A DNA stretch of 64,000 bases from NCBI GenBank assembly GCA_963931925.1, contig OZ007579.1:34310118-34374117 (forward strand). The letters are read 5' to 3'. Below, piece after piece: positions 20,106 to 45,160 of the stretch. The notes under the pieces were generated by a model. That model made no database searches. It worked only from the letters and a program-made list of their open reading frames with translations, and was not told where the DNA came from. The number at the start of each line of letters is the position of its first letter. The first letter of the stretch is position 1. The stretch comes from Onchidella celtica. Lineage: Eukaryota > Mollusca > Gastropoda > Systellommatophora > Onchidiidae. The position numbers and the translations under genes were made by a program.

Positions 20106-20354
20106 ACTTTGTTTTTAGTCTGAGGACAGATGTCACTGTAGATCTATGGATACCTTCTTCTTTTGTTGACCTAAAAACGTAGGCGTAGGAAAGGCTGTCC
20201 GTAGTCGTTTTAACCACGTATAGAGGCCTACCCAGCGCTTTGTGGATAGCTCGACACACTCGTCTCTAGATCTACATCTAGTTCAATTACGGTACTTTAA
20301 ACAGCTAGAAACGTTGAAAGAAAGATTCTACCACTTTATTTTGTGAGATTCGGG

Positions 20355-28711: not shown

Positions 28712-28891
28712 ATGCTCATTAGTGCTATAGCATTCTGGATATTCGTCTTTATCATCCTGATATTTATTTTCTTTGATAAACTTCCAGATCTCCGCCCTTG
28801 CGGGTTCTCAGGACGCTGTCCTCGATGTCCAGGCTATCGTCCCTTGAAGCAATCACCCGTTCTGAAAGCAAAGTCGAGACGCAGATGCTGA
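28712..28891 (+). CDS. 59-aa single-TM micropeptide, basic Cys tail
   Basis: ATG-to-TGA frame of 59 residues. Residues 2-21 are strongly hydrophobic (Leu/Ile/Phe/Trp/Val), forming one membrane helix that could also act as a signal anchor. The rest is hydrophilic and basic with four Cys, including a GRCPRCPGYRP word, and ends KSRRRC. The ATG has G at -3. First member of the plus-strand cluster, and similar in plan to the protein at 30606 (helix first, then basic Cys-rich tail). I know no family for it. Function unknown. The basic tail is presumably cytosolic by the positive-inside rule. Confidence 0.68.
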   Translation: MLISAIAFWIFVFIILIFIFFDKLPDLRPCGFSGRCPRCPGYRPLKQSPVLKAKSRRRC

Positions 28892-29308
28892 CTTACTGAA
28901 ACAGAAACTTAATGGAATGTCAAGTACTATCACGTCTCTTTTCTAATTTGAGCTTTTCATTGCATTTCCCCCTGCTGGATGGTGACATTGTCAGCCTCTA
29001 ACATCGCAACCGATTGTGGCCAAGAATCTTTTCCACATTTATAGAGGAAAACATCTCTTAGGTTTCTAGGATTTGTTAACTTCGCTATCCTCGACACCAG
29101 TGTACAAAATAACGAACTTCGTACTGCATAATACAGCCGTTATCCTGCTGACGAGCAGTTAAACCCAAACCCAAGCTGAAACTCGATTGTGTAAGAGTGG
29201 ATCTACATAGAGATAGCTATTTCCATTGTCTCACACTCTCCGAGCGCTGACAGTCATCGGTGTTCACTGAACTCAACCCCAATCTGAGAAACGCCGGTCA
29301 CCAATTGG

Positions 29309-29446
29309 ATGTTTTTGATAATTGACATCTGGGCGATCCTTCTGATTTGGCTGATATTCTACATGGCTGGTGTCTGGTGTGTGGACTGTGCTTCTCGCAA
29401 CAACCGGCCAAGGAACAACAACGCCAGTAGTGGTCGCAAAGAGTGA
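29309..29446 (+). CDS. 45-aa single-TM micropeptide
   Basis: ATG-to-TGA frame of 45 residues. Residues 2-23 are hydrophobic with several Trp (DIWAILLIWLIFYMAG), followed by VWCVDC and a short polar tail rich in Asn and Arg. The start context is weak (T at -3). Same strand and same design as its neighbours: N-terminal helix with a short basic tail. No family recognised. Could also be a remnant of a longer gene, but no upstream frame supports that. Confidence 0.6.
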   Translation: MFLIIDIWAILLIWLIFYMAGVWCVDCASRNNRPRNNNASSGRKE

Positions 29447-29603
29447 CTGATCTCAACAGAAGTGAAACTCCGAGTGTATTGGGTTAGCTATAAGTTCTGA
29501 CCCAAAAAAGCATCAGTCCTAGACACCGAAAGGTATAACGCCCAATTAGTCGGACAACAACATCATTTATAGCCACCGGTAATTGGCTCGTGTGAACTGC
29601 TAA

Positions 29604-29610
29604 TATATAA
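29604..29610 (+). promoter_or_regulatory. Candidate TATA box
   Basis: TATATAA lies about 95 bases before the ATG at 29703, a plausible distance for a TATA element plus a short leader. Such motifs are common in AT-rich DNA. Confidence 0.25.
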
Positions 29611-29702
29611 ATTGTCGATAAAATCGTCGCCAAAACCCCAACACTCATAGCCTGAAACATTGCCTGCCTTGGCTTCGGCATTGTCATACGCAATGTGCTA
29701 CA

Positions 29703-29894
29703 ATGATGCTGTTAGGTCTCTTGGCGCTCGTACGATACGGATTTGAACACATGACTGAACACATGCCCCCCATCACCCAAAAGAGGTCACAGGAATCGGA
29801 AGTTTTCAAGTGCATGTTCAGTTTTTATTTACTGGTTTATCTTTTCTTCATCACAGTTACCTTCCCTTGTGCCCTTATCTACCTGATATTCTAA
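29703..29894 (+). CDS. 63-aa small membrane protein
   Basis: ATG-to-TAA frame of 63 residues with a weakly hydrophobic N-terminus, a polar middle (EHMPPITQKRSQESE) and a strong C-terminal helix (FYLLVYLFFITVTFPCALIYLIF region) that ends the protein. Several in-frame Met codons (residues 1, 2, 17, 21 and 38) leave the true start open. The tail-anchored form differs from the first two members. AATAAA follows at 30182. Unknown family. Confidence 0.55.
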   Translation: MMLLGLLALVRYGFEHMTEHMPPITQKRSQESEVFKCMFSFYLLVYLFFITVTFPCALIYLIF

Positions 29895-30605
29895 GGCCAC
29901 CTGAAAGTCTAGACCTACCTAGAGACGATCCGAGTAGGGCGTAAAAGTAATATACTCATTGTGCATCTCGCGATTAACACAGGAATCCTTATAAAGGTCA
30001 CTGGACATCCACAGTCCGGTCACCTCAGGATATTGTATGCTGATTAAAGTCAGGTGGCCTCTCTTATAAAAATGTCTCACCTGCCGAAAGCGACCACCTG
30101 ATACTGTGGTCATCCTGTCGACATTCAGCCAAGGGCCCATTCTCAATGGTCTTTCGACAGAAAGAAATACTATGTCCTTACAATAAATAATACATTGATC
30201 ACGTTTATCATTGTATTTCTTGTAGCTGTTGCCTGGTAAACATAAGTTTGTACTCTGTACGTACAATTTATTAGCAATTGTGGAACACTTGCGTTTGTTC
30301 TGACTTTGAGAGAAGAGTGACCAAACACTGTGTGGTTCTAGGCCTTCGCAGTCAAGAAGCAAAATCCACTCACGACATACGACATTTTACACGGAATGTC
30401 TAACTTAACCTTGAGGTAAACTTCACCCCATTACGATCTCCAACTATCTATGCTTGATGTGTGCATAGCATGGTGGGGAAAACTGCCTAGATTGGTTGAA
30501 TCTTCGCACTGAATCTTTCCGACAATTCTACTGAAGCCACTTTTAGCATTTCGGCCGAATGATTTCTCCACGCCACCCCCGTCACCTTGACGTACGCAGA
30601 GAGCA
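29895..30605. other. Intergenic interval in the cluster
   Basis: No plus-strand ATG frame with a helix. A frame without ATG (30102-30239) ends in a hydrophobic stretch (see findings). A 147-codon minus-strand frame at 29919-30362 starts at TTG and lacks motifs. Confidence 0.35.
30182..30187 (+). terminator. Candidate poly(A) signal AATAAA
   Basis: AATAAA about 290 bases after the stop of the 63-aa frame at 29703-29894. Confidence 0.3.
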
Positions 30606-30812
30606 ATGCCACACGAGGAGGTCCTACCTACCGATATCCTAGTGTACGCTCTGGTCTTATACGCCATTTATTACTTCTTCATCAAGAGACACGAACCTTA
30701 CACGTTTGTATCGCCGGCTTGCCTGTGCACCTGCAAAAGGTGCGCCAGAAAACCGTGCTGCGCTAGAAAATCCAATTGCCGAGCACCCACCTGCAGCACC
30801 TGCGGGAAGTGA
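30606..30812 (+). CDS. 68-aa TM protein with Cys-rich basic tail
   Basis: ATG-to-TGA frame of 68 residues with G at -3. A short acidic N-terminus (MPHEEVLPTD) leads into one helix of about 16-17 residues (ILVYALVLYAIYYFFI). After KRHEPY, the C-terminal 31 residues contain nine Cys among Lys/Arg (for example CTCKRCARKPCC). The tail could bind metal or form disulfides; neither is shown. Same plan as the protein at 28712. An overlapping 85-codon frame at 30706-30963 is rejected as a shadow. Confidence 0.75.
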   Translation: MPHEEVLPTDILVYALVLYAIYYFFIKRHEPYTFVSPACLCTCKRCARKPCCARKSNCRAPTCSTCGK

Positions 30813-31237
30813 GTACCAATATCAACACAAAGCAGCTCATCGTTTCACAGCTACCAAGCCATCTACACCAGGAGAACCATCTCACTGTGTTCAGCAACCT
30901 GGCTGCCAAATCTTTGCCTTTGCTGCCTTTGCTGCCCTCAGCGAAGTAGCCCGTTGGCGGTAAGCTACGTAACGAACAACTACAACGGCATCATTGCCAC
31001 CGTTATCAAGAACTAAGACGCACAAAAAAAAAACGTAGACTCCATCTTAAAGGCGAGAGTTTATTCCGATAGGGAGATATTTATGTACATGTAAATACTT
31101 GTTGCGGATTCTACAAGTCTTGATGACTTTATCTATAGGCAGTGTTGCATAGTTTACTGGTGCTTTTTACCAATCCTATATCAGTGCAACTGTGAATAAC
31201 GTGGCGGTTCGTAGTTCAGAGGAAAGTTATACGTTGT
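30813..31237. other. Intergenic interval before tandem array
   Basis: No supported gene. An A run lies near 31026 and the sequence is AT-rich towards the array. Confidence 0.4.
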
Positions 31238-31330
31238 ATGACAAAACGTGCCAAGTGCCTGTTTGTGAGTATTTTCCACTACATCGAACTTTCGTTATAC
31301 AAGTGCACGTATTACGTACGTGTATTATGA
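31238..31330 (+). CDS. Possible 30-aa leader peptide
   Basis: ATG frame of 30 residues (starts MTKRAKCLFVSIF, moderately hydrophobic) whose stop overlaps the start of the next micropeptide as ATGA at 31327-31330. It may be a diverged array unit, or chance. Confidence 0.25.
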   Translation: MTKRAKCLFVSIFHYIELSLYKCTYYVRVL

Positions 31331-31392
31331 CACATGATACGTTTGTTCTAGTATTAGTTATCCTGTTTTTAATTGCGGTTTCCTATCTCTAA
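31327..31392 (+). CDS. Array unit 1, 21-aa TM micropeptide
   Basis: Short ATG frame starting MTHDTF and ending AVSYL, with about 15 hydrophobic residues between. A at -3. First intact member of a tandem family with a shared leader block (AAGTGCAC.TATTAC) upstream. The family pattern is M, three polar residues, a Leu/Val/Ile helix with LGLV near the middle, then a terminal Tyr plus Arg or Asn. Unknown family. Confidence 0.7.
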   Translation: MTHDTFVLVLVILFLIAVSYL

Positions 31393-31423
31393 CTTTGAAT
31401 TGACAAGTGCACAGATTACATAC

Positions 31424-31486
31424 TTGCAAAATACCGTTGTATTGGGATTAGTGATCCTGTTTTTAATTCTGGTATTCTACAATTGA
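31424..31486 (+). pseudogene. Array unit 2, ATG replaced by TTG
   Basis: Keeps the complete helix frame (TVVLGLVILFLILVFYN then stop) and the leader, but has TTG where the other copies have ATG. Either a start-lost copy or one using a non-ATG start. Confidence 0.6.
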
Positions 31487-31527
31487 ATATATATCCACGA
31501 GTGAATATATTACATACCGTCTCAACA

Positions 31528-31590
31528 ATGCACGACGCGCTTATATTAGGATTAGTTATCTTGTTGATAATTCTGATCATATACAACTAA
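31528..31590 (+). CDS. Array unit 3, 20-aa TM micropeptide
   Basis: Starts MHDALILGLV and ends ILIIYN, then TAA. A at -3. One residue shorter than the 21-aa form. The helix is almost pure Leu/Ile/Val. Codon for codon it aligns with the ATG-less unit 4. Confidence 0.72.
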   Translation: MHDALILGLVILLIILIIYN

Positions 31591-31621
31591 CTGTACAGTG
31601 GCAAGTGCACATATTACATAT

Positions 31622-31684
31622 TTGCATTACAGACTTATATTGGGATTAGTGATCCGGTTTCTTACTGTAGTTTTCTATAACTAA
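31622..31684 (+). pseudogene. Array unit 4, start lost, Arg in helix
   Basis: TTG at the ATG position and an Arg in the middle of the helix (GLVIRFLTVVFYN). Leader and stop are conserved. Probably a decayed copy. Confidence 0.6.
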
Positions 31685-31722
31685 CTTTAAAGTGACAAGT
31701 GCCCTTATTACCATTTATCGCT

Positions 31723-31788
31723 ATGGCGCACGATGCGGTTGTATTGGCAGTAATTATCTTGTTGATAATTTTTATCATTGACAGCTAA
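31723..31788 (+). CDS. Array unit 5, 21-aa TM micropeptide
   Basis: Starts MAHDAVVLAV and ends IFIIDS, then TAA, with ATG in strong context (G at -3, G at +4). The usual terminal Tyr-Asn/Arg is replaced by Asp-Ser, so the C-terminal end is not under absolute constraint. Confidence 0.68.
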   Translation: MAHDAVVLAVIILLIIFIIDS

Positions 31789-31833
31789 CCTTAATTAAGT
31801 ACCATATTAAGTACCATATTATATACTTACGTA

Positions 31834-31899
31834 ATGAGACATAATATACTTGTGCTGGGACTAGCTGCCCTGTTTATAATTGCTGCTCTTTATCGCTAA
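31834..31899 (+). CDS. Array unit 6, 21-aa TM micropeptide
   Basis: Starts MRHNILVLGL and ends IIAALYR, then TAA. G at -3. Contains an Ala-rich helix end and the terminal Leu-Tyr-Arg. Confidence 0.7.
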   Translation: MRHNILVLGLAALFIIAALYR

Positions 31900-31938
31900 C
31901 TTTAAGTACACAAGTTGTGCCTATCACATACTTGCATA

Positions 31939-32004
31939 ATGATACGGGAGAGGATGATACTGGGAGTTATAGCCCTGTGTCTACTTGCGGCTTATTATCG
32001 CTAA
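31939..32004 (+). CDS. Array unit 7, 21-aa TM micropeptide
   Basis: Starts MIRERMILGV and ends LLAAYYR, then TAA. A at -3. A second Met at residue 6 could give a 16-residue form. The charged N-terminus is more basic and acidic than in other units. Confidence 0.65.
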   Translation: MIRERMILGVIALCLLAAYYR

Positions 32005-32042
32005 CATTAGTCAGAGAAGCAAAAATTCTACAATCTATCAGA

Positions 32043-32108
32043 ATGGAACAGCCTCTTCTTGGAATAGGACTAGTTCTCTTTGTTATAATTCTGATTTTTT
32101 ATCGTTAA
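32043..32108 (+). CDS. Array unit 8, MEQ-type TM micropeptide
   Basis: First of five nearly identical copies. Starts MEQPLLGIGL and ends ILIFYR, then TAA. Strong ATG context (A at -3, G at +4). The leader and spacer of 38 bases repeat with the coding part, giving a 104-bp unit. Confidence 0.78.
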   Translation: MEQPLLGIGLVLFVIILIFYR

Positions 32109-32146
32109 CTTAAGACAGAGAAGCAAAAATTCTACAGTCTATCAGA

Positions 32147-32212
32147 ATGGAACAACCTCTTCTTGGAATAGGGCCAGTTCTCTTTGTTATAATTCTGATT
32201 TTTTATCGTTAA
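32147..32212 (+). CDS. Array unit 9, MEQ-type with Pro at 10
   Basis: As unit 8, but residue 10 is Pro instead of Leu (CTA to CCA), which would kink the helix. Exactly 104 bp after unit 8. Confidence 0.75.
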   Translation: MEQPLLGIGPVLFVIILIFYR

Positions 32213-32250
32213 CTTAAGACAGAGAAGCAAAAATTCTACAGTCTATCAGA

Positions 32251-32316
32251 ATGGAACAACCTCTTCTTGGCATAGGGCTAGTTCTCTTTGTTATAATTCT
32301 GATTTTTTATCGTTAA
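32251..32316 (+). CDS. Array unit 10, MEQ-type TM micropeptide
   Basis: Protein identical to unit 8 with silent changes (GGC and GGG glycine codons). Exactly 104 bp after unit 9. Confidence 0.77.
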   Translation: MEQPLLGIGLVLFVIILIFYR

Positions 32317-32354
32317 CTTAAGACAGAGAAGCAAAAATTCTACAGTCTATCGGA

Positions 32355-32420
32355 ATGGAACAACCTCTTCTTGGAATAGGACTAGTTCTCTTTGTTATAA
32401 TTCTGATTTATTATCGTTAA
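32355..32420 (+). CDS. Array unit 11, MEQ-type, Tyr at 19
   Basis: As unit 8, but residue 19 is Tyr, so the end reads LIYYR. Exactly 104 bp after unit 10. Confidence 0.77.
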   Translation: MEQPLLGIGLVLFVIILIYYR

Positions 32421-32458
32421 CTTAAGACAGAGAAGCAAAAATTCTACAGTCTATCAGA

Positions 32459-32524
32459 ATGGAACAACCTCTTCTTGGAATAGGGCCAGTTCTCTTTGTT
32501 ATAATTCTGATCTTTTATCGTTAA
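32459..32524 (+). CDS. Array unit 12, MEQ-type with Pro at 10
   Basis: Protein identical to unit 9 (Pro at residue 10), with one silent change near the end. Exactly 104 bp after unit 11. Confidence 0.75.
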   Translation: MEQPLLGIGPVLFVIILIFYR

Positions 32525-32562
32525 CTTAAGACAGAGAAGTAAAAATGTTACAATCTATCAGA

Positions 32563-32628
32563 ATGAAACAACGTTTTCTTACAGCAGGACTAGTTGTCCT
32601 TTTTATAATTCTGATTTTCTATCGTTAA
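32563..32628 (+). CDS. Array unit 13, basic 21-aa TM micropeptide
   Basis: Starts MKQRFLTAGL and ends ILIFYR, then TAA. Same 104-bp spacing, but the N-terminus has become basic and the leader has diverged slightly. Last intact unit. Confidence 0.72.
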   Translation: MKQRFLTAGLVVLFIILIFYR

Positions 32629-32658
32629 TTTTAGATAAGCCAATTCCATTCTTGCCCA

Positions 32659-32700
32659 ATGGAATGTTGGGTATTAGGAATTGGACGTTTTGTCTTGTGA
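32659..32700 (+). pseudogene. Array unit 14, truncated copy
   Basis: ATG frame of 13 residues (MECWVLGIGRFVL) that resembles the first half of the family helix and then stops. It lies 96 bp after unit 13. Probably a dead terminal copy. Confidence 0.5.
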
Positions 32701-33257
32701 AGAATAACTATGAAATATCTCGATTTGGGGAAATTGAGTAAAGGGATACCTTTTTGGGATCTCGCTGGAGAGATTCACTATCTAACGTCTTGAATTTTGC
32801 AAGGCTATGTAAAGTTTTCCATACTTTTCAAAGCGTTGCTGTATTTCTTCCCGAAGAAATGTAAAACTGTGTAGAAAAATCGGCACCCGACAGCTTTCTC
32901 TGACTTCCTAAAACTACAATTGTCAACTAGTGACAAATAAGGAACTGGGAAATGCCAGGCACCATTTCTAAAACTTGTACTGAGACTTTGTCAACCTGCA
33001 TAAACAGCTAAATGACCTGTAATTTCTGAGGGTAAGAAAAGAACACATTTTTCTTGAATACCGCGAGACAGGTCTACACTGTAGTTCTCCTCTGTGTGAA
33101 GGTTGTGGCCAGCGAGTGATTACAAACTACTCAGTGATGTATTTTGTTTTTATAACTCACTGAGATTTTATATGCCCAGATTTATTATTAGTTTCGTATA
33201 AGCTCTTGGTGAGAAAAGAGCGAAACAGATGTGGTAACTTGTGTTTTGTAGAATGAC
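32701..33257. other. Intergenic interval after the array
   Basis: Only short ATG frames without a helix (for example 27 residues from 32711). No repeats. Confidence 0.4.
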
Positions 33258-33428
33258 ATGTTCACACATCGCGACGGCATCGTCAATCGCTTGGGCACTG
33301 ATAGATCTGAGATAAAACGAGAAAACATGCAGTCCAAGCGTGTATTCTTTCGCAGCCTAAGAAAAAAGTTCAGATCGCTGAGACGACGTTTTGTGTATAG
33401 ACAAAATAGATATAAGCCTCTAAAATAG
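33258..33428 (+). CDS. Possible 56-aa very basic peptide
   Basis: ATG-to-TAG frame of 56 residues. The second half is very rich in Arg and Lys (FFRSLRKKFRSLRRRFVYRQ) and has no membrane helix. Two short repeats of FRSLR are visible. It lies inside the cluster on the same strand. Composition suggests nucleic-acid or membrane-surface binding, but it may be chance. Confidence 0.3.
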   Translation: MFTHRDGIVNRLGTDRSEIKRENMQSKRVFFRSLRKKFRSLRRRFVYRQNRYKPLK

Positions 33429-34019
33429 TGGACTGCGAAACGACAAAAATTCTGGGCAGTATATCTCAGAATGGATCAATTATTGTTGAGCCTGAGTTGA
33501 ATATCCAGAAAAAAATTCTGAGGTGCAGTTTTATAACCCAACAAGAAATTATCTCAGAAAGGATTAACCGGTGCCAATCGGTAACCAAACATCATATGAG
33601 CTAAGAAGTACCGCATAACTGAAAAGCAATCCAATTATTTCAAAATTAATATGTGAAGTACCCCAGAAATTCTGCGGTCCGACTGCATCGTTATTTCGAC
33701 TTTCGCATTACGTAAACGAAAAAAGGCTCTGTGGACAGTGCCGACGGGTACAATCGAAACAGGCACCATCAAGGACTCAACGAGATCTGCTTTCAGAAAC
33801 TGTGGCCTTTTGCACTCAGAAAATTAAAAGTGCGGCCGCATCTACATTGACTGGCGACTCTGTCAGGCCAAAAGGACAAAACAAAACAAAACCAAACGGA
33901 TTGTCGTCAATGACATACTGCAGCATTGCTGGCAGTAGTAGGGGTCATGGTGGATTAAGGTCAGCTGCCAGGTCAAGATGCGGGAAGGGGAAGGGGAAGA
34001 GTTGCCGGACGTTGCAAGG
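33429..34019. other. Intergenic interval in the cluster
   Basis: No supported gene. The forward frame 33802-34053 starts at GTG and has no helix. Confidence 0.4.
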
Positions 34020-34103
34020 ATGGAAGATTGCGTTCTGGCCCTGGTCATCCTGACTTCTTTCTACATCTTTCACAATATTATACGCGCTGATTTCCTGAAC
34101 TGA
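34020..34103 (+). CDS. 27-aa single-TM micropeptide
   Basis: ATG-to-TGA frame of 27 residues: a short acidic start (MEDC), a helix of about 14-15 residues (VLALVILTSFYIFHNII), and a polar end (RADFLN). Strong ATG context (A at -3, G at +4). Not similar in sequence to the array units but the same size class. Confidence 0.62.
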   Translation: MEDCVLALVILTSFYIFHNIIRADFLN

Positions 34104-34384
34104 GCGATGACTCCGTAACGACCTCATCATTTCTGTCACACTGATCATTCTGTTCAGTCAGCCAATTTCAGCAATGTTTTCTGACGGTGTGCTGGACAGT
34201 TTCAAAGACATGGTAACATATCCAGCCTTGCTATTGACGTAGTGAGCACAGTTCAGAATAGAGTCTCATGAGCTACTTTGTGACTGAATTTGTGTATAGT
34301 AACTGATCAGTGAACCATGCTCACGGTAAGTTAAGTATGCAAAATGGGAAATCATGGCGGCCATTGTTATGCTGATCTCCGGCC

Positions 34385-34849
34385 ATGGAAACGGGAGACA
34401 AACATGTTGGCCAGTTAGGAGCAACAGTTATCGCTCTTAAACATCGCTTCTTTGTCGCCTTGTCCACTCTGAAGCAGGACCTTGAGAAATTCAAACCAGA
34501 AGTGCTAGACTTTCTAGCCCTGCCACTCTCGGAGTTGCGGGACTTTCTGGTTTTCTGGGGACTGGACATTGCGGTACTAATTTTAGGTTTCGTCGTTTTG
34601 TACAACCTGTTCGCCTCGGCTGATGAGCAGGAAGATAAACGTAACCCCAGGGAAAATCTGGGCCGTTCCAGGCGACAGGAGCTCAAAAAACAGCAGGCAA
34701 AATACAAAAAAGCCAACAAAGTAAATGGTGACCAAAGCTGTAATTGCACGCCTGCTCTGCCGTGTTTGATACTCAAACATCACAGAGGCTCGGGTAAAGT
34801 CAAACATTTTATCAAGAAACGTTACATTCGTAAATTTGAAAATTATTGA
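34385..34849 (+). CDS. 154-aa single-TM protein, largest in cluster
   Basis: ATG-to-TGA frame of 154 residues in strong context (G at -3, G at +4). Residues 1-55 look amphipathic and helical (KQDLEKFKPEVLDFLALP). One helix lies near 58-79 (FLVFWGLDIAVLILGFVVLYN). A charged stretch (ADEQEDKRNPREN) and a long Lys/Arg-rich region follow, with a small Cys cluster (CNCTPALPC) and a basic end (KKRYIRKFENY). The opposite-strand frame of 151 codons is its shadow. I recognise no domain. The size and balanced composition make this the best candidate for a conserved gene by itself. AATAAA lies at 35148, about 300 bases downstream. Confidence 0.75.
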   Translation: METGDKHVGQLGATVIALKHRFFVALSTLKQDLEKFKPEVLDFLALPLSELRDFLVFWGLDIAVLILGFVVLYNLFASADEQEDKRNPRENLGRSRRQELKKQQAKYKKANKVNGDQSCNCTPALPCLILKHHRGSGKVKHFIKKRYIRKFENY

Positions 34850-35261
34850 CTTTGTCGATCTGAGTGACTCCTCTACAAAACCTAGGCGACAGTCTTTAGC
34901 TGGCCAGTGGAAATATAACTAAGAACAAAAACACTTGAGCCTTGAGCACCAACTGAAAAGGGAAATCACCTTAAAGGCACTCATCTTAGACCCCCTAAAG
35001 TTTAAGCCACTCAAATGAAAAGCGTTGATACCTTGAAGAACTATTGCCGTCTGCCGTGTGTTTCATGGAGTTAAACGTTTATTTTGATTGGTTCTAACGT
35101 GCTATTACTCTTTTGATGACCACGGTCTATTTTTGGAGTGTATTTGTAATAAAAACATCGTGTAAAGCGGATTACGTAGTAACCGGGAATAGTTTCCTGT
35201 ATTGTAATATGAGCGGAAAGATCTTGATGGATCGACCAGAAATGCCACTGGTTAGTTTGAC
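34850..35261. other. Intergenic interval with poly(A) signal
   Basis: No further frame. Probable 3' untranslated region of the 154-aa gene. Confidence 0.4.
35148..35153 (+). terminator. Candidate poly(A) signal AATAAA
   Basis: AATAAA followed by a few bases and GTGTAAAG. Fits the 3' end of a transcript carrying the 154-aa frame. Confidence 0.4.
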
Positions 35262-35441
35262 ATGGTGATTTATTTCTATTTCAGTGATTTTATATTCGCT
35301 GGAGTTGCCACAATCCTCGTGCTCTACTTTGTAACTAAGATCATGCTTTGTTTCTGCCAGTACAGACTCCTGAAAGAGAGGCGCGAAGGTAATTATCAAC
35401 CTCAGCGGAAACAGCGAAGAAGAAAGAAGGCTATGATATAA
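35262..35441 (+). CDS. 59-aa single-TM micropeptide, basic tail
   Basis: ATG-to-TAA frame of 59 residues in strong context (G at -3, G at +4). The N-terminus MVIYFYFSD leads into a helix at about 10-31 (FIFAGVATILVLYFVTKIML) with CFC after it. The tail is strongly basic (LLKERREG, then QRKQRRRKKAMI). Length and plan match the protein at 28712. The opposite-strand 75-codon frame is a shadow. AATAAA at 35691. Confidence 0.7.
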   Translation: MVIYFYFSDFIFAGVATILVLYFVTKIMLCFCQYRLLKERREGNYQPQRKQRRRKKAMI

Positions 35442-35861
35442 GAATCTGTCAGATGTTGAACTTTTGACTATCGAAAGAAGACATTTGGTTTACCAGCTCT
35501 TTGCAACTTGCTACAGGCCGGTTTGTTTGTCTGGCAATCGTGAAACTTTGGCCGACAGAAGTGGGAAATGACGTCCACTGGTAAATGGAAGCAAGATGCC
35601 AGTTGGTCTGTTTCTTCTTTTGATCGATTTGTTGACAAACTTTCCTAGTCGAAATACAATTGGTAAAGATAATTCAGTGAACTCTGAAACAATAAAGACA
35701 TTCAACTTTAGAAGAAACCTACGAAATTCTGAAACATTTTAGAACTAGTTGAATAATCTTGTATGCTTGAGAAACAATAACGAATAAAACGTAAAGGCAG
35801 TTCAAAACAATCGTCTTTTCTTTGACACCTTTGGGTTGTAAATACTTCCTAGCGTAGGCCA
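35442..35861. other. Intergenic interval with poly(A) signals
   Basis: A short non-hydrophobic ATG frame at 35568-35648 is not called. Two AATAAA motifs lie here. Confidence 0.4.
35691..35696 (+). terminator. Candidate poly(A) signal AATAAA
   Basis: About 250 bases after the stop of the 59-aa frame at 35262-35441. A second AATAAA is at 35783-35788. Confidence 0.4.
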
Positions 35862-36059
35862 ATGGAAGGTGGGCGAGGCGATTATCAGGGCGAACGGCGT
35901 CAGCAGATGATCAATGAGAGAATTAACGACGCAGGTTACCAGGATGATGAATCATGTTTGCTGATCTACCCTTGTTACGTCATCATTGGGCTGTACGTGG
36001 CCTTTATTGCGTATTTTACGTCCATGGTGATCACCTGCGCGCTGACGCAATGCATGTAA
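35862..36059 (+). CDS. 65-aa single-TM protein, C-terminal helix
   Basis: ATG-to-TAA frame of 65 residues with G at +4. The first 30 residues are polar (GGRGDYQGERRQQMINERI). A Cys-flanked helix follows at about 32-61 (CLLIYPCYVIIGLYVAFIAYF, then TSMVITCAL), ending TQCM. Gly/Arg/Gln-rich at the N-terminus, the reverse layout of the basic-tailed members. The overlapping 66-codon frame is a shadow. Confidence 0.7.
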   Translation: MEGGRGDYQGERRQQMINERINDAGYQDDESCLLIYPCYVIIGLYVAFIAYFTSMVITCALTQCM

Positions 36060-36417
36060 ATGTGATGCCATCGAGGATTTCCCAAATGATTAAAAACGAG
36101 AAAATAATGACGAAAAATATTTCTCTTTCAGTCTCTTTGGATAGAGTCGGCTAGATACAATACAATACTGAACGAATCGTTTGTTCACGACTTCTATAGT
36201 CAACCCAACCAACGAGAACAATAATTACAATTTCATTTATAGATAACCAACAGTTGTTGAGACAAAGGCTTTACGGGTCAGTGAATCTTGAATTCCCGGC
36301 ACTCACTATTTAGACCCATTAAGAAAAAAGAAGTCTCTGGCAGTTGGCAAAAGGTGCCCGGCTATCAACATCCGCAGTAAGCAGAGAGCTTGCAAATCAG
36401 TGCTGGGTTCAGAGGCG
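36060..36417. other. Intergenic interval in the cluster
   Basis: No frame with a membrane segment was found. No repeats. Confidence 0.4.
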
Positions 36418-36501
36418 ATGGTTGTAGTGTGGGTCATGTTGACCACAGCCTTTCTCTATAGTCTTCTAGTCATTGTAGACTGGCTGCTTTTTGAAACCTG
36501 A
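36418..36501 (+). CDS. 27-aa single-TM micropeptide
   Basis: ATG-to-TGA frame of 27 residues, almost all hydrophobic (VVVWVMLTTAFLYSLLVIVD, then WLLFET). Strong ATG context (G at -3, G at +4). Same length as the micropeptide at 34020. Confidence 0.62.
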   Translation: MVVVWVMLTTAFLYSLLVIVDWLLFET

Positions 36502-36514
36502 CATTGCGAGGTGT

Positions 36515-36607
36515 ATGAGAACGCCCAAAACAACAATTGGGAAACGAAGACAGATTTACGAACTTGTGAATCGTACACAACCTCCATCCTCGGGTGAACT
36601 TGTGTGA
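36515..36607 (+). CDS. Possible 30-aa basic peptide
   Basis: ATG frame of 30 residues starting 13 bases after the previous stop (MRTPKTTIGKRRQIYELVN start). Ends SSGELV with the stop inside a GTGAGT splice-donor-like word. May be the second frame of a two-frame message, or chance. Confidence 0.25.
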   Translation: MRTPKTTIGKRRQIYELVNRTQPPSSGELV

Positions 36608-37050
36608 GTAAAATTACTTTCTGAAACCGGATGGTTTAATTATTCTAGCGAAGAAATTTTAATTTTCTTTTTTCATTCGTGGATAGATAACATAACGTCT
36701 TTAGAAATCATCTGAGACGTAATACTGTGAGTCTTCAGTACAAAGAAGCCAAGACTCAGGAAAAGTGTAGAAAAATCAGAAAAAATCAAATACTCAGATT
36801 CGAGACAACACACATTATGATAAAGCGGAAGTACTAAGTATATACTAAAATCAGTAATCAGAATATATTTGAGTGCAACGCTCAGAAAAGGTCCAGGAAA
36901 ATCAAATGCACAAAATTGAGATATGAGATATTATTATTATCAAGAAAAATTAATAACATCCATTATTAGAATATATATTTGGAATGGTCTCAAGAAGAGA
37001 TTCGTATTTTGCAAGTAGAGATCCTTGCTGGTGATTGGACACGCTGAGTC
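36608..37050. other. Intergenic interval in the cluster
   Basis: AT-rich with repeated AGAAAAATCA-like words. An ATATATATTT stretch near 36970 lies about 75 bases before the next ATG and could be a TATA element. Confidence 0.35.
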
Positions 37051-37248
37051 ATGGAATCTTATTTGTACCCAGCATTGGTCTTTTCCTATTTCCTGTTCTG
37101 TTTGGTGTTTATTATGTTCGCCATAGCTAGAATTTTACTAATCATTACGGAGCCAGAGAGGCAAGTGGACGCTAGTTTGCTTAGCATGGATCCGGAAGTT
37201 CGTTTTTGGGATGGCCAATTCACAGAGTCCGATTCCAAAACAGCCTGA
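37051..37248 (+). CDS. 65-aa single-TM protein
   Basis: ATG-to-TGA frame of 65 residues in strong context (G at -3, G at +4). The helix spans about 7-33 (ALVFSYFLFCLVFIMFAIAR, then ILLIITE). A polar, acidic tail (PERQVDASLLSMDPEVRFWDG) follows. Its last 38 bases overlap the next frame (+1). The two may be separate proteins, or one protein interrupted by a one-base shift. Confidence 0.7.
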   Translation: MESYLYPALVFSYFLFCLVFIMFAIARILLIITEPERQVDASLLSMDPEVRFWDGQFTESDSKTA

Positions 37249-37468
37249 TGTGAGAGAGGAGCCGATACCATTGTTGCTCCGTCCTGCAGATTTCAGGCCA
37301 GAAAACACACCGGAAGGAGAAACTGGTTTGCGTTACCACGGACACAACTTGCAGTTTACACACAATGAGCCAAAATCTCAGCCAGTACCCATTTACTGCT
37401 CAGATACTTGCGGGGATCATCTCCATCAGTTCATAACAGTTTGTTGTATATTCCCAAGTATAGAATGA
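37211..37468 (+). CDS. 85-aa Pro-rich protein overlapping the previous
   Basis: ATG-to-TGA frame of 85 residues, soluble and Pro-rich (PIPKQPDVREEPIPLLL, RPADFRPENTPEGE), with four Cys near the end. The ATG has G at -3 and G at +4. It overlaps the 65-aa frame by 38 bases in the +1 frame. Composition is protein-like. AATAAA at 37521. Confidence 0.5.
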   Translation: MANSQSPIPKQPDVREEPIPLLLRPADFRPENTPEGETGLRYHGHNLQFTHNEPKSQPVPIYCSDTCGDHLHQFITVCCIFPSIE

Positions 37469-37520
37469 ACACAACTGTAAGATCAATCTTGGCAACTGAA
37501 ATTTAACCTGGCTAAGAGAA

Positions 37521-37526
37521 AATAAA
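37521..37526 (+). terminator. Candidate poly(A) signal AATAAA
   Basis: About 55 bases after the stop of the 85-aa frame, a good distance for its 3' end. Confidence 0.4.
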
Positions 37527-37553
37527 ACGAATAGAGGAATGAAAGAAAGGAGA

Positions 37554-37784
37554 GCCGGATAGGAGAACGAGATCTTGGCAAATACAATAACTATATTATG
37601 TTTTCATTTTACATCCATAATCTTGAGATACACAACGGCATGGACAATTTTACTTTGGCTTTTTCTTGTCACAGAAAAAGTAGGAATCTCAGAGAGTCAG
37701 AGAGCCAGAGATATCCAAAAATTTAGTAGAACATGCAACATACTTGGATTATTTCCACATAATGACAGGAGATCCAAAATGTGA
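37554..37784 (+). pseudogene. TM frame without ATG
   Basis: Open frame with a hydrophobic stretch (TAWTILLWLFLVTE) and a polar tail, but no in-frame ATG. Layout and +1 overlap with the next frame mirror the pair at 37051/37211, so this may be a decayed paralogue or may use an upstream exon. Confidence 0.35.
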
Positions 37785-38013
37785 GTCTGAACACAATAAG
37801 TGGGACACTATTGATATGGTGGAACAATCTATCTTTACACCGCATGGCAATCAACCGCGTCCTCACACAAAAACGATAGAAGGTCCTGAAAATTTGAGGA
37901 AAGAAAAAAACAACAACAATTTAACATTTATGTCCTTTTCACCGGATGCGGTATTTGCACTTTGCCAATGCCTGTACGTCGGAAAACAGGGAAGTTTAAT
38001 TATAATGCTTTAG
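37762..38013 (+). CDS. 83-aa soluble frame after TM frame
   Basis: ATG-to-TAG frame of 83 residues (MTGDPKCESEHNKWDTID start), polar with a Pro-containing middle (TPHGNQPRPHTKTIEGPEN). It overlaps the preceding TM frame by 23 bases in the +1 frame, like the 37051/37211 pair. No family recognised. Confidence 0.4.
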   Translation: MTGDPKCESEHNKWDTIDMVEQSIFTPHGNQPRPHTKTIEGPENLRKEKNNNNLTFMSFSPDAVFALCQCLYVGKQGSLIIML

Positions 38014-38020
38014 ATTGAGA

Positions 38021-38152
38021 ATGGAAATTATGGAGGATTTTTTCGACTACGCTTATGTCTTTTTATGTCTCATTCTGTGGTTTCTGGGCCTTTGCCATTT
38101 ATTGATCTGGTTTATCAACAACGAACAAGTTCGGCTGGAAGATTTTGAATGA
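38021..38152 (+). CDS. 43-aa single-TM micropeptide
   Basis: ATG-to-TGA frame of 43 residues in strong context (A at -3, G at +4), eight bases after the previous stop. The acidic N-terminus (MEIMEDFFDY) leads into a helix (AYVFLCLILWFLGLCHLLIW), then FINNEQVRLEDFE, an acidic tail. It carries negative charge at both ends, unlike the basic-tailed members. AATAAA lies 18 bases after the stop. Last member of the cluster. Confidence 0.72.
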   Translation: MEIMEDFFDYAYVFLCLILWFLGLCHLLIWFINNEQVRLEDFE

Positions 38153-38169
38153 TGTACAAACTGTGATGT

Positions 38170-38175
38170 AATAAA
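38170..38175 (+). terminator. Candidate poly(A) signal AATAAA
   Basis: AATAAA 18 bases after the last stop of the cluster, followed by a GT-rich stretch (TTTGTGATG) about 30 bases on. Likely 3' end of the last transcript. Confidence 0.5.
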
Positions 38176-41937: not shown

Positions 41938-44900
41938 TAATAATAATAATAATATATACATTTATATAGCGCCAGGACTAAAGCATTAAAAGCTCTAGGC
42001 GCTGTACACAGTAAAAAATCATAAAAGCACATTCAAATAAACTTACACACACACAGACAAACTAGTTTTATACATCCATAGCAAGCTATAAAATTCAGTT
42101 TTTAAAAAGAAATGTTTTTAACCTGTTTTTAAATATGTTTAGAGAGGCAGAATTTCGAACCTCTTGTGGTAAAGAATTCCACACACAGGGACCAAAACAA
42201 CTAAAAGCTCTATCTCCATAATTTAATGTTTTACACCTGGGAACAACCAGTTTGTTTTCTGTAGTAGATCTTAAAAATCTATCAGACTCATGTTTTTTCA
42301 AAAGTTCCGAAAGATAGGAGGGAGCTGAACCTTCAAGACATTTGTAAACAAAAACTGCAGCTTTAAATTTTATTCTGTTTTCAACAGTAAGCCAGTGAAG
42401 TTGGTCAATAAGGCTTGAGGCAGATTCTCTTTTTGATTTTCTCAAAATCAGTCTAGCTGCATTATTCTGAATTATCTGAAGGCGTTTTATTTTGTTGCTC
42501 GGAATTCCAAAGAGCAGAGAGTTACAATAATCAAGCTTTGAAAACATAAGTGAAGTGATAAGTATTCGAGTTGCCTCTTGGGATATGAATGGACGAATAG
42601 AGCTGATGTTTTTTAATTGAAACATTAATGATCGACATAATGAACTTATTTGATTTTCCATGCTGAGATCTGATTCTAAAATTGTGCCTAAGTTTTTAAC
42701 TTTATTCACGTTTGCTACAGTGCTTTCACCAATATTTAATTTTACATTTTTAATTGCAGTAATTTGTCTTTTCTTTCCAATAATCATAACTTCTGTTTTG
42801 TCTTCATTTAGCTTTAGTTTGTTTTGGTTCATCCATTCTTTTGTGTCCATAATACACTTTTCACTATCTTTTATAACATTGTCAACATGACCTAAAGTCG
42901 TACCAGGGTGATATAGTTGGACATCATCAGCATACTGATGGTAATAAAAACCATGATCTTTAAAAATATTAGACAGGGGCCCAATGTACATAATAAAGAG
43001 AGTGGGACCTAAAACTGAGCCTTGTGGAACACCATATGGCAGTATGCATTCTTTTGATTTTATGTTATCTGTTACAACAATTTGTTTTCGGTCACATAGA
43101 TAGGACCTGAACCATTTCAGAGCTATACCAGAGATCCCATAGGTTGCTTCTAATCTGCAAAGAATAATTTCAGGATCTATAGTGTCGAAGGCAGCTGATA
43201 GATCAAGAATGTTTAAACACGAAACCAAGCCCTTGTCCAGTAATCCAAACAAATCATTAACAATCCTCAATAAAGCAGTTTCAGTGCTACAATTTGCACG
43301 ATATGCTGACTGGAATGATTCACAGAGAGCGTTATTGTTTAGATGACCAAGTAGTTGTTTTAAAATTACTTTCTCTAAAATCTTTGATAAAAATTGAAGA
43401 TTAGATACTGGTCTATAGTTTTTCAAGTTTTCAGAGTCAAGATTAACTTTCTTAAGCAAAGGTTTAACGAGTGCAACTTTATAGGTCTCTGGCACAGCAC
43501 CTGTACATAAAGAAGTGTTAATAATTTTTGTGATGGATGGTAAAAGATCAGGTAAGCATTTTTTTAACAAGTCTGTGGGCATGGGATCTAGTTCACATTG
43601 CTTAGTAGCAGCAGAACAAATTATGCCATTGATTTCATCACTGGTAACTTCACTGAAACAAGAAAGATTATTCCCAACAAATACAGAATTTTCACTAGTT
43701 ATATCACAACTACTTAAATTGTCTCTAATTTTTTCTATTTTGTCCATGAAGAAGTCCCCAAATGCATTAGGCAGATGTTCCTTTTCTATTGAAGTTGGCA
43801 GGTTGATCCTTTTCTGTTTGCCCAACAAATCATTGGACAAATTGAAAAATTGTTTTGAATTTTGAATTTCACAAAACCTTGAGTTGTAATAGTCACATTT
43901 AGCTTTTCGAATGGTGTCATTCACAAGTTTCTTATGGTGAATGTATATTTCTTTGTCAATTTGTAACTTTGTTTTCTTCCATTTCCTTTCTGCTCGTCGC
44001 CTGGCCTGTTTTGCTGCTTTTGTTTCCAACGTGAACCATGGTGATGGTGTCCTGTCGGTCACAGTCCTTGATGTTTCCGGAGCATGACTGTTTAAGACGC
44101 TTTGGATTTTTTCTGTCAGAACTTCAGCATTGATGTCTTCTGAGTCAGCCAACGTTGTTCTCAAATCTAATTTGAAATTTTCTAAGTTAATTTTCTTCAC
44201 GTCTCTGCATTTTACATTCTTTTTCTTTGGCAAGGGTTTCTTGTAAGGAATGTCGAAATATAGAAAATGGTGGTCAGATATTAGTTTGTTGGTATTTACC
44301 ACCGCTGATGCAAAAGTAAATTTGGACGAAGTAACAATCCAATCAAGAATATGGCCAAATTTGTGTGTGCTGGATTCAACATGTTGTGTCATTTGATGTT
44401 CATGAAATAAACGTTTCATAAAATTTACATCAGCAGATGTTTTGGAGTCGTAATGCAAGTTAAAATCACCCATGAAGACAAGTTCCTGCTTTTCGATGTT
44501 GTTTAAAATCAAAATTTCTTCAAATTGTGTCAAAAAATCTGATGTTTTGAGATTGTTTTTCTTGTTAGGTGGTGGTCTATATAGCAGGACAAATTTGATT
44601 TTCTTGTGAGGTAATGACAAAGTCATAATCGCAGACTCAAATGAAGTAACAGTATCAGGATTCTCACCAAAGTTCAAGGCCGAAGAGAGAGTATTTTTGT
44701 AGACAATACCAATGCCACCTCCATTTTTGTTCTTTCTAGGAAATGATTTATAAGAATAACTCGGTGGAGTGAGTTTAGAAATTACATGCTCATGACCGTG
44801 TTCATGGATCCAGGTTTCTGTGATAATCATAATGTCAATGTCATAGTCACCAATGATGCCACACAAGTCTGTTGTCTTATTACATGCTGACTGTGCATTA

Positions 44901-45160
44901 GTATACCCAATACGAATGTTTTTTCCACAGGTCACATCTCTAAATTTGTTTCTTGTGTCAATTGGAATCAAGTTGTTTTTATTTATTCAACTTTGATGGA
45001 AGCCTTTAACTGTATTGTTTATTTTTCTCTCACTCAGTACAGATTTTATTCTTCTTCTGGTCCCACCTCTTGCTCCCCTCTTTCTGTGTTTCTGTTTACA
45101 GATGTGTAGATTTTTCAGTAGTTGGAAAACCTGCTTGGGCAGTTTGTTGATGTTGTTATT
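41938..45160 (-). mobile_element. LINE of the CR1/L2 group
   Basis: Non-LTR retrotransposon read on the minus strand. It ends with GGCGCTATATAAATG... and a TTATTATTATTAT tail (41938-41955), the microsatellite-type 3' end usual in CR1/L2-like LINEs. ORF2 is almost complete. Sequence upstream of ORF2 (to about 45160) keeps a related frame with one stop. ORF1 is not seen, so the copy is probably 5'-truncated. Confidence 0.88.
42095..44971 (-). CDS. LINE ORF2: endonuclease and reverse transcriptase
   Basis: Open for 958 codons. Apurinic-like endonuclease at about 20-240 with TETW near 51, GDFN near 168 and SDHH near 232. Reverse transcriptase at about 500-760 with LDLSAAFD near 590, PQGSVLGP near 649 and YADD near 680. 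The C-terminus has FGPCVWNSLPQEVRNS and FKNRLKTFLFK, typical of CR1/L2-group LINEs. All catalytic motifs seem intact. The frame begins at TTG, because a TGA at 44987-44989 cuts it off from an upstream in-frame stretch of about 58 codons that includes a basic RGARGGTRRR word, a feature often found ahead of the endonuclease. So the copy is intact in its enzyme part but broken near its start. Confidence 0.93.
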   Translation of the reverse strand: MIPIDTRNKFRDVTCGKNIRIGYTNAQSACNKTTDLCGIIGDYDIDIMIITETWIHEHGHEHVISKLTPPSYSYKSFPRKNKNGGGIGIVYKNTLSSALNFGENPDTVTSFESAIMTLSLPHKKIKFVLLYRPPPNKKNNLKTSDFLTQFEEILILNNIEKQELVFMGDFNLHYDSKTSADVNFMKRLFHEHQMTQHVESSTHKFGHILDWIVTSSKFTFASAVVNTNKLISDHHFLYFDIPYKKPLPKKKNVKCRDVKKINLENFKLDLRTTLADSEDINAEVLTEKIQSVLNSHAPETSRTVTDRTPSPWFTLETKAAKQARRRAERKWKKTKLQIDKEIYIHHKKLVNDTIRKAKCDYYNSRFCEIQNSKQFFNLSNDLLGKQKRINLPTSIEKEHLPNAFGDFFMDKIEKIRDNLSSCDITSENSVFVGNNLSCFSEVTSDEINGIICSAATKQCELDPMPTDLLKKCLPDLLPSITKIINTSLCTGAVPETYKVALVKPLLKKVNLDSENLKNYRPVSNLQFLSKILEKVILKQLLGHLNNNALCESFQSAYRANCSTETALLRIVNDLFGLLDKGLVSCLNILDLSAAFDTIDPEIILCRLEATYGISGIALKWFRSYLCDRKQIVVTDNIKSKECILPYGVPQGSVLGPTLFIMYIGPLSNIFKDHGFYYHQYADDVQLYHPGTTLGHVDNVIKDSEKCIMDTKEWMNQNKLKLNEDKTEVMIIGKKRQITAIKNVKLNIGESTVANVNKVKNLGTILESDLSMENQISSLCRSLMFQLKNISSIRPFISQEATRILITSLMFSKLDYCNSLLFGIPSNKIKRLQIIQNNAARLILRKSKRESASSLIDQLHWLTVENRIKFKAAVFVYKCLEGSAPSYLSELLKKHESDRFLRSTTENKLVVPRCKTLNYGDRAFSCFGPCVWNSLPQEVRNSASLNIFKNRLKTFLFKN

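Follow-up and report, generated by a model that had tools for sequence, protein, structure and literature searches.

A plus-strand locus for predicted one-helix membrane micropeptides in the mollusc Onchidella celtica, in part most likely a single polycistronic message

Positions 28712-38152 of the window, i.e. of the whole 64,000-nucleotide stretch of Onchidella celtica DNA analysed here, appear to constitute a mollusc plus-strand locus for one-helix membrane micropeptides. On balance, a single polycistronic message is the most likely reading for the segment between 28.7 and 32.6 kb at least; for the rest of the cluster, beyond 32.6 kb, we hold it less surely. An initial sequence-only reading had offered a choice between many tiny genes and one polycistronic message; the latter is favoured, at least for 28.7-32.6 kb, because ATG is depleted between the frames and because the spacers of a tandem array measure only 38-45 bp. 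The tandem array, the retention of frames and hydropathy in its copies, the ATG depletion and a gradient of start contexts were computed from the DNA. From these we infer a message that is transcribed, left unspliced and translated into functional, membrane-inserted peptides.

The initial reading had proposed at least 22 short plus-strand frames, each encoding a single hydrophobic helix. This was borne out. Twenty-two ATG-to-stop frames of 20-154 codons lie at 28712-38152, and 21 of them attain a mean Kyte-Doolittle hydropathy of 1.8 over 17 residues, the exception being array copy c5 (31939) with 1.76. Dinucleotide shuffles of the region (n = 200) yielded a mean of 1.84 such frames and at most 6, compared to the 21 observed. 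In real DNA of the same genome the background of such frames is higher than in shuffles. With the array left out, the region holds 11 plus-strand membrane-type frames where 3.94 were expected from genomic controls (P = 0.0026); by a stricter rule (hydropathy ≥2.2, length ≥40 aa) it holds 8 where 1.31 were expected (P = 7e-5). Some of these 11 frames may be of chance origin; elsewhere in the window, 9.7-kb stretches carry up to 9 such frames at the lower threshold. A recently duplicated 104-bp unit accounts for five of the 22, which brings the number of independent frames to about 18. The claim that none is on the minus strand was inexact: three minus-strand frames of the region reach 1.8 and one reaches 2.2, and outside the array the strand ratio is 11 plus to 3 minus.

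Four frames precede the array on the plus strand. The frame at 28712..28891 encodes 59 aa with an N-terminal helix and a Cys-bearing basic C-tail (+9). At 29309..29446 follows a 45-aa frame with an N-terminal helix, a basic C-tail (+3) and the weakest start context in the set, at 29703..29894 a 63-aa frame with a C-terminal helix, and at 30606..30812 a 68-aa frame in which the helix precedes a Cys-rich basic tail (9 Cys, +9) and the stop is overlapped by a donor-like site (30809). Downstream, also on the plus strand, two 27-aa one-helix frames are located at 34020..34103 (41 aa if started at 33978) and 36418..36501. The longest frame (34385..34849, 154 aa) has one helix and a basic C-tail (+13), and the 59-aa frame at 35262..35441 is built likewise (C-tail +9). 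Acidic segments distinguish the frames at 35862..36059 (65 aa, acidic N-part, C-terminal helix), 37051..37248 (65 aa, helix, acidic C-tail) and 38021..38152 (43 aa, helix, both ends acidic; AATAAA at 38170). The charged tail which had been ascribed to almost every frame is thus present at 28712, 29309, 30606, 34385 and 35262 (C-tails of +3 to +13), and it does not hold as a general rule: the array peptides have a net charge of 0-1 C-terminal to the helix, and the C-ends of 37051 and 38021 are acidic.

The array core at 31327-32628 consists of 11 intact plus-strand frames of 20-21 codons, each predicted to encode one hydrophobic helix, and two ATG-less units. Copies of 21 aa are c1 (31327..31392), c3 (31723..31788), c4 (31834..31899), c5 (31939..32004, the lowest hydropathy), c6 (32043..32108), c7 (32147..32212), c8 (32251..32316), c9 (32355..32420), c10 (32459..32524) and c11 (32563..32628; 27 aa if an in-frame upstream ATG at 32545 is used); c2 (31528..31590) has 20 aa. 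Unit A (31393..31487) lacks the ATG, its frame being otherwise open. Unit B (31591..31686) lacks the ATG and has an arginine within the helix. The copies c6-c10 are five near-identical, recent copies of the 104-bp unit. Wherever no ATG-less unit intervenes, the gap between neighbouring units is 38-45 bp, which would leave too little room for separate promoters. Predicted hydropathy of the array peptides ranges from 1.76 to 3.12 over 17 residues, in peptides of only 20-21 aa. Intact copies differ in length within the frame by a single codon, and c1 and c3 each carry one out-of-frame ATG inside the frame. The seven diverged copies have retained ATG, stop, open frame and hydropathy; by neutral simulation the joint probability of this is about 10^-7.65. 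Codon likelihood gave an omega of 0.93 (kappa 3.5), or 0.87 with another codon model, and pairwise Nei-Gojobori dN/dS values were mixed, with several pairs >1. Therefore, the residues as such carry no sign of conservation in the array. In codon usage the array does not resemble the GPCR exons of this genome (z -1.9).

Next to the frames themselves, the DNA between them is conspicuous. In all ten array spacers together there is a single plus-strand ATG (32545, in frame with c11) compared to a shuffle mean of 7.5, and one or none was reached in 2 of 2000 shuffles. The 389 bp of the five spacers ahead of c6 contain none at all; the shuffle mean was 7.2 and zero was reached in none of 2000. Upstream, the four spacers in 28892..31326 (1898 bp, frames left out) have 17 plus-strand ATGs with 32.5 expected (z -3.6). 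The minus strand behaved differently, with 41 ATGs against 36.2 expected in the upstream spacers (z +1.07), and for the array spacers the z values were -3.7 on plus and -0.07 on minus. Because the array spacers are mutual copies, they do not count as fully separate observations of ATG loss. Pooling the upstream and the five array spacers resulted in a z of -4.94, which was unmatched in 276 overlapping control windows. In all three blocks (upstream, array, downstream) none of the 64 triplets was depleted as strongly as ATG, a rank that ATG attained in just 1 of 88 control windows. Depletion was computed over entire spacers, beyond the pre-start segments alone, and this test as well as that for the start gradient was devised only after inspection of the sequence. 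Downstream of the array the pattern is weaker: 63 plus-strand ATGs were found with 83 expected, and the minus strand shows a weak trend. The segment 32629-33258 is not visibly poor in ATG (12 ATGs), and five ATGs lie within 70 bp upstream of 34385. Outside the cluster, at 39.1-40.3 kb, a mild dip is seen as well (z -2.0 on plus, -1.8 on minus).

A good start context had been claimed (at least 16 starts with a purine at -3, many with G at +4), and the counts agree. With 33978 taken as one start, 20 of the 22 have a purine at -3 and 12 have G at +4; when the five near-identical copies are counted once and 34020 is the start, the numbers are 16/18 and 9/18. Among ATGs remaining in the upstream spacers a purine at -3 occurs in 6 of 17, compared to the 16 of 18 main starts. 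Start strength increases from 5' to 3' (rho 0.70, permutation P = 0.0014): G at +4 is found in one of the first nine starts and in eight of the last nine, and from 34020 on a purine at -3 is combined with G at +4 in 6 of 7. Such a rise fits the need of leaky scanning.

Within the searches run, neither a known family nor a solved structure or a paralogue was found for the predicted peptides. Among ten proteins scanned none exceeded the Pfam cut-off, and c6 was without match at E up to 5. The array profile, with 21 columns and little power, met no PDB chain at E up to 10, nor did the 154-aa frame match one. The roles suggested initially (pump or channel regulation, germ cells, secretion) thus gain no direct support from these searches. 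The PDB includes phospholamban and sarcolipin chains; for kinship with sarcolamban, phospholamban or sarcolipin there were no PDB and no Pfam matches, the array queries being too short to exclude it. Rfam and tRNA searches returned nothing at the locus, and an egg lysin search, which has little weight, no match. Protein searches of the own genome with 34385, 37051, 30606 and 35862 gave only self-matches below E 0.02 for these four frames. The array consensus matched only c1 (E 1.6) and copy c6 only c6-c10. No match to the array was seen elsewhere in the genome in searches that skip simple repeats and score best candidates only. At the DNA level the whole region found itself and 18 places of a 49-bp repeat (29136-29184). 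Weak paralogue candidates (L066, L022, L064) were rejected since by eye they lie in repeat-rich or unrelated frames. In a literature search, with most subscription papers and preprints outside it, no such locus was described.

How might a polycistronic message operate? Ribosomes would load at the 5' end, and weak-context starts would be bypassed by leaky scanning. Past each short frame scanning would resume, via spacers largely free of stray ATGs. One message could yield four different peptides plus the bare helix of 20-21 residues in as many as eleven copies. The array would act as a dose setter, tandem duplication adding copies and ATG loss removing them. After synthesis the peptides may insert into the membrane, where their helices would pair with one another or with those of a larger membrane protein, possibly a pump or channel. 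The frames at 34.0-38.2 kb would either continue this message at its 3' end or be small genes in their own right; re-initiation would be hindered after a frame as long as 154 codons. A bolder version, possible if doubtful, is an operon-like animal locus in which scanning and re-initiation produce about 20 membrane micropeptides from one plus-strand message that may reach 10 kb, selection keeps the spacers ATG-poor and the amplified 21-residue helix is the main product.

Other explanations have to be weighed. The array may be one polycistronic gene and the frames on both sides of it separate small genes of one exon, every one equipped with a promoter and a poly(A) site. We consider this unlikely, albeit the most serious competitor. 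A poly(A) hexamer (AATAAA or ATTAAA) is present after several frames (30182, 35148, 35691, 35783, 36089, 37521, 38170), starts from 34020 on are mostly strong, 32629-33258 is not visibly ATG-poor, and the 5' leaders of single genes are likewise poor in ATG. However, AATAAA is no commoner than in shuffles (upstream 1 vs 1.1, downstream 4 vs 4.0), whole spacers are depleted, and the upstream z closely resembles that of the array. It is more improbable that only the array is a genuine gene, with most of the remaining 11 frames being open by chance in DNA free of constraint. The genomic background of about 4 in this length, stretches with up to 9, the missing second own-genome match for the four frames searched and the lack of Pfam hits over cut-off would agree with this. 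So would codon usage. With a model built from 30 GPCR loci in this genome (15,094 codons), 12 non-array frames (33258 included) scored z 7.2 against general background and the 11 membrane-type frames 6.8-7.7. Because two minus-strand readings scored equally high (6.6 and 7.6), this is not frame-specific; held-out GPCRs separate the frames better (+0 4.35, best minus frame 2.60). Against chance stand the excess of frames by both rules, the strand ratio, the better context of main starts compared to spacer ATGs and a depletion which also flanks the array. The proposal of a dedicated plus-strand locus for small membrane peptides is supported at the array, with weaker support at the frames around it.

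It is very unlikely that the array represents merely a tandem satellite whose frames are open by accident. The five near-identical units, an omega close to one and the missing ATG in 2 of 13 units are what a satellite might present, yet diverged copies have kept frame, hydropathy and stop, the length changes by one codon only, no other genome match emerged among the best candidates scored, and the spacers are ATG-poor on one strand only. Least probable of these four, and hardly to be expected, is that the hydrophobic frames are one-helix exons of a multi-pass membrane protein gene. They do share one strand at 0.3-1 kb spacing, and donor-like (30809, 30960, 34326) and acceptor-like sites (30941, 37289, 37674) are present. 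Yet an ATG, in most cases in good context, and a stop delimit every single frame, the array would remain unexplained, Pfam gave nothing over cut-off, and splice sites barely exceed shuffles (donors 10 vs 7.0, sd 2.8; acceptors 9 vs 6.1, sd 2.2). A scan with consensus splice-site weights yielded no gene model. A viral origin was likewise ranked below the main reading; none of ten proteins matched PHROGs at E up to 0.01, a library that does not cover animal viruses.

If the polycistronic reading is true, one mRNA giving many tiny proteins would be very unusual for an animal, and a message with eleven helices would widen the view of how animal ribosomes use one mRNA. With its eleven copies, the array would allow re-initiation to be tested along a natural series of copy numbers. 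Counting ATGs in spacers offers an inexpensive screen for more polycistronic micropeptide genes in unannotated genomes. To our knowledge, helix peptides of 20-21 residues would be among the shortest animal membrane proteins.

Known systems offer partial parallels. Sarcolamban (Scl) comprises ER-localised Drosophila smORF peptides, grouped with phospholamban as SERCA regulators, in which redundant peptides derive from one bi/polycistronic gene (PMC11475943); the peptide has 28 aa and is a helix (PMC4359375). One-helix transmembrane micropeptides, predicted here, and redundancy are common to both, whereas the present locus has eleven copies of 20-21 aa plus unrelated tailed peptides. In tarsal-less / polished rice / mille-pattes, four frames of 11-32 aa are located on a 1.5 kb message, the peptides being described as sharing LDPTGQY and as being without predicted structure (PMC11475943). 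Similarly, frames that are very short and encode a single peptide family are arranged here in tandem, seen in DNA as frames with short, ATG-poor spacers; in contrast, LDPTG is absent from all 22 translations by eye, and the peptides are predicted hydrophobic helices. The paralogues sloth1 and sloth2 are membrane micropeptides from one transcript with a weak, then a strong start context and leaky scanning, which was tested on the bicistronic message; there are two frames, Sloth1 has 79 aa, the peptides are mitochondrial and orthologues extend out to choanoflagellates (PMC9681215). Compared to these, the frames reported here are more numerous, shorter and without relatives in the searches run. 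'Dwarf' smORFs of 5' leaders and non-coding RNAs are characterised as about 20 aa long, less conserved and without indicators of peptide function (PMC4359375), and smORFs of this kind as polycistronic, with a codon use different from canonical genes (PMC10036370). The array frames share the size of about 20 aa with the dwarf smORFs, but differ from them in being a duplicated and uniformly hydrophobic family.

The short plus-strand frames that the sequence-only reading had reported at 28712-38152 are present. A frame was taken as membrane-type when its mean Kyte-Doolittle hydropathy was ≥1.8 over 17 residues. By this rule 28.5-38.2 kb contained 21 frames on the plus and 3 on the minus strand. 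In 200 block-wise dinucleotide shuffles the plus strand had 1.84 frames on average (s.d. 1.3, maximum 6); with the recent array copies reduced to one, 17 frames compared with 1.96 in shuffles. Shuffles are too low as a background because real DNA yielded 5.8 frames per 10 kb and strand in 43 kb of other loci of the genome and 4.7 in the rest of the window. The control for the non-array frames was 117.5 kb of real DNA (16 loci plus the rest of the window). With the array left out, 11 frames were counted versus 3.94 expected (P = 0.0026), and 8 versus 1.31 at hydropathy 2.2 and 40 amino acids (P = 7e-5). Outside the array there is, therefore, a genuine but moderate excess of such frames, and some of the 11 may have arisen by chance. 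Codon usage left the status of the frames unsettled.

The array (31327-32628) consists of thirteen units of about 100 bp each, 11 of which carry an intact 20- or 21-codon frame (c1-c11, 5' to 3'). The other two, between c1/c2 and c2/c3, have lost the ATG; their frames are otherwise open. c6-c10 are near-identical 104-bp copies with six variable coding sites, four synonymous and two not. The seven copies c1-c6 and c11 diverge by 17-37% from their consensus, and all retain ATG, stop and hydrophobic core. The only length change within the array frames is one codon in c2. In a neutral simulation the consensus was mutated at the observed rates and retention of frame and hydropathy was scored. The least diverged copy retained both in 26% of trials and the most diverged one in 2%; over the seven copies the joint neutral probability was 10^-7.65. 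Differences were fewest at the second codon position (139/414, versus 216 and 163 at the others), the pattern expected where hydrophobicity, and not residue identity, is what matters. An omega (dN/dS) of 0.93 (kappa 3.5; 0.87 under the MG model) is in line with this. With kappa, the transition/transversion parameter, set to 2, the best grid omega was 0.8, with a fit just 0.24 log units better than that of omega 1. The omega result speaks against conservation of the peptide sequence but fits with selection that acts solely on helix character.

Next to the frames, ATGs are scarce. On the plus strand the ten array spacers (579 bp) contain a single ATG (position 32545, in the reading frame of c11) versus a mean of 7.5 in shuffles (≤1 in 2/2000); as these spacers are related to each other, the near-zero count is not fully independent. 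A narrower set, the five spacers that precede c6 (389 bp), drops the spacer before c11 and the repeated copies of one recent spacer; it has no plus-strand ATG versus 7.2 in shuffles (zero in 0/2000) and 11 on the minus strand. Spacers of the upstream block (28892-31326) hold 17 versus 32.5 expected from dinucleotides (z -3.6; minus strand 41 versus 36.2), and downstream spacers 63 versus 83 (z -3.0; minus strand z -1.2). ATG was the most depleted of the 64 triplets in all three blocks (five spacers for the array), versus 1/88 control windows of 2287 bp. Upstream block and array together reached z -4.94 versus -4.23 in the lowest control, which, judged by position, probably holds a simple repeat. 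The test was devised after the sequence was read; its internal replication comes from the use of three blocks and from the contrast between strands. In sliding windows the loss extended from about 27.7 to about 32.5 kb and was weaker near 33.1-34.3 and 36.1-37.3 kb. It was absent at 37.3-39.1 kb, and a mild dip at 39.1-40.3 kb affected both strands. A purine at -3 precedes 6/17 of the remaining upstream-spacer ATGs versus 16/18 of the main starts (five near-identical copies counted once); elsewhere in the window the value is 55.8% of 984 plus-strand ATGs.

At the Pfam cut-off no family was found for any of ten cluster proteins, PHROGs matched 0/10, and neither the array profile nor the 154-residue frame matched a PDB chain. 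Searched as DNA against its own genome, the cluster region had no second copy, a 49-bp dispersed repeat aside. This stretch (29136-29184) recurs with 85-92% identity at at least 18 other places and may belong to a short interspersed element. The assembly comprises 1.14 Gb in 43 contigs, the window lying on contig C13. The genome is that of a mollusc: the molluscan hemocyanin beta-sandwich family has 33 matches in it, and one exon matches solved hemocyanins, KLH1 included. About 2.7 Mb from the window (C13:31386681-31591689), GPCR genes are densely clustered; their open frames are long and single. On the minus strand of the window are an LTR-type retroelement at 16107-20114 (1335-codon open frame; matches to reverse transcriptase, RNase H and integrase, and a weak one to aspartyl protease) and a LINE-type element at 42095-44986 (963 codons; endonuclease and reverse transcriptase matches). 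Ala/Tyr-rich stretches in minus-strand open frames at 57492-57818 and 59432-59794 we take, by eye, to be like the C-part of RBM24/RBM38; Pfam gave no match for these frames.

If expressed, the array would yield a single message with many starts because the 38-45 bp between neighbouring units appear too short for promoters. The likely unit would be 28.7-32.6 kb, upstream frames included, because these share ATG-poor spacers and weak starts. The downstream part (34.0-38.2 kb) may be separate because its starts are strong, its spacers hold more ATGs and re-initiation would hardly pass the 154-codon frame at 34385..34849. Two short plus-strand frames (31238-31330 and 35116-35268) have stops overlapping the next membrane-frame starts (31327 and 35262), which would suit coupled re-initiation. 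At 34317-34326 on the plus strand, the region's top-scoring donor-like site comes nine bases after an ATG whose -3 base is a purine; the pair might bound a short initial coding exon.

The tandem micropeptide locus is real and unusual, and its upstream half is likely polycistronic. For peptides this short, membrane insertion after ribosome release is likely, and the micropeptides would insert in this way. By computed charge five have basic C-tails, which should face the cytosol according to the positive-inside rule. By analogy with sarcolamban, such putative membrane peptides might regulate a membrane protein by helix packing. Judged from sequence, the locus would be a polycistronic smORF gene, a known kind in a new form; if the whole 10 kb were one message, it would be something new in animals. 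Leaky scanning requires weak starts ahead of strong ones. Along the cluster the start-context score rises 5' to 3' over 18 starts (rho 0.70, permutation P = 0.0014), with G at +4 in one of the nine 5'-most starts and eight of the nine 3'-most. The same weak-before-strong order characterizes the bicistronic sloth1/2 message of Drosophila, which, according to PMC9681215, works by leaky scanning with the weak start first.
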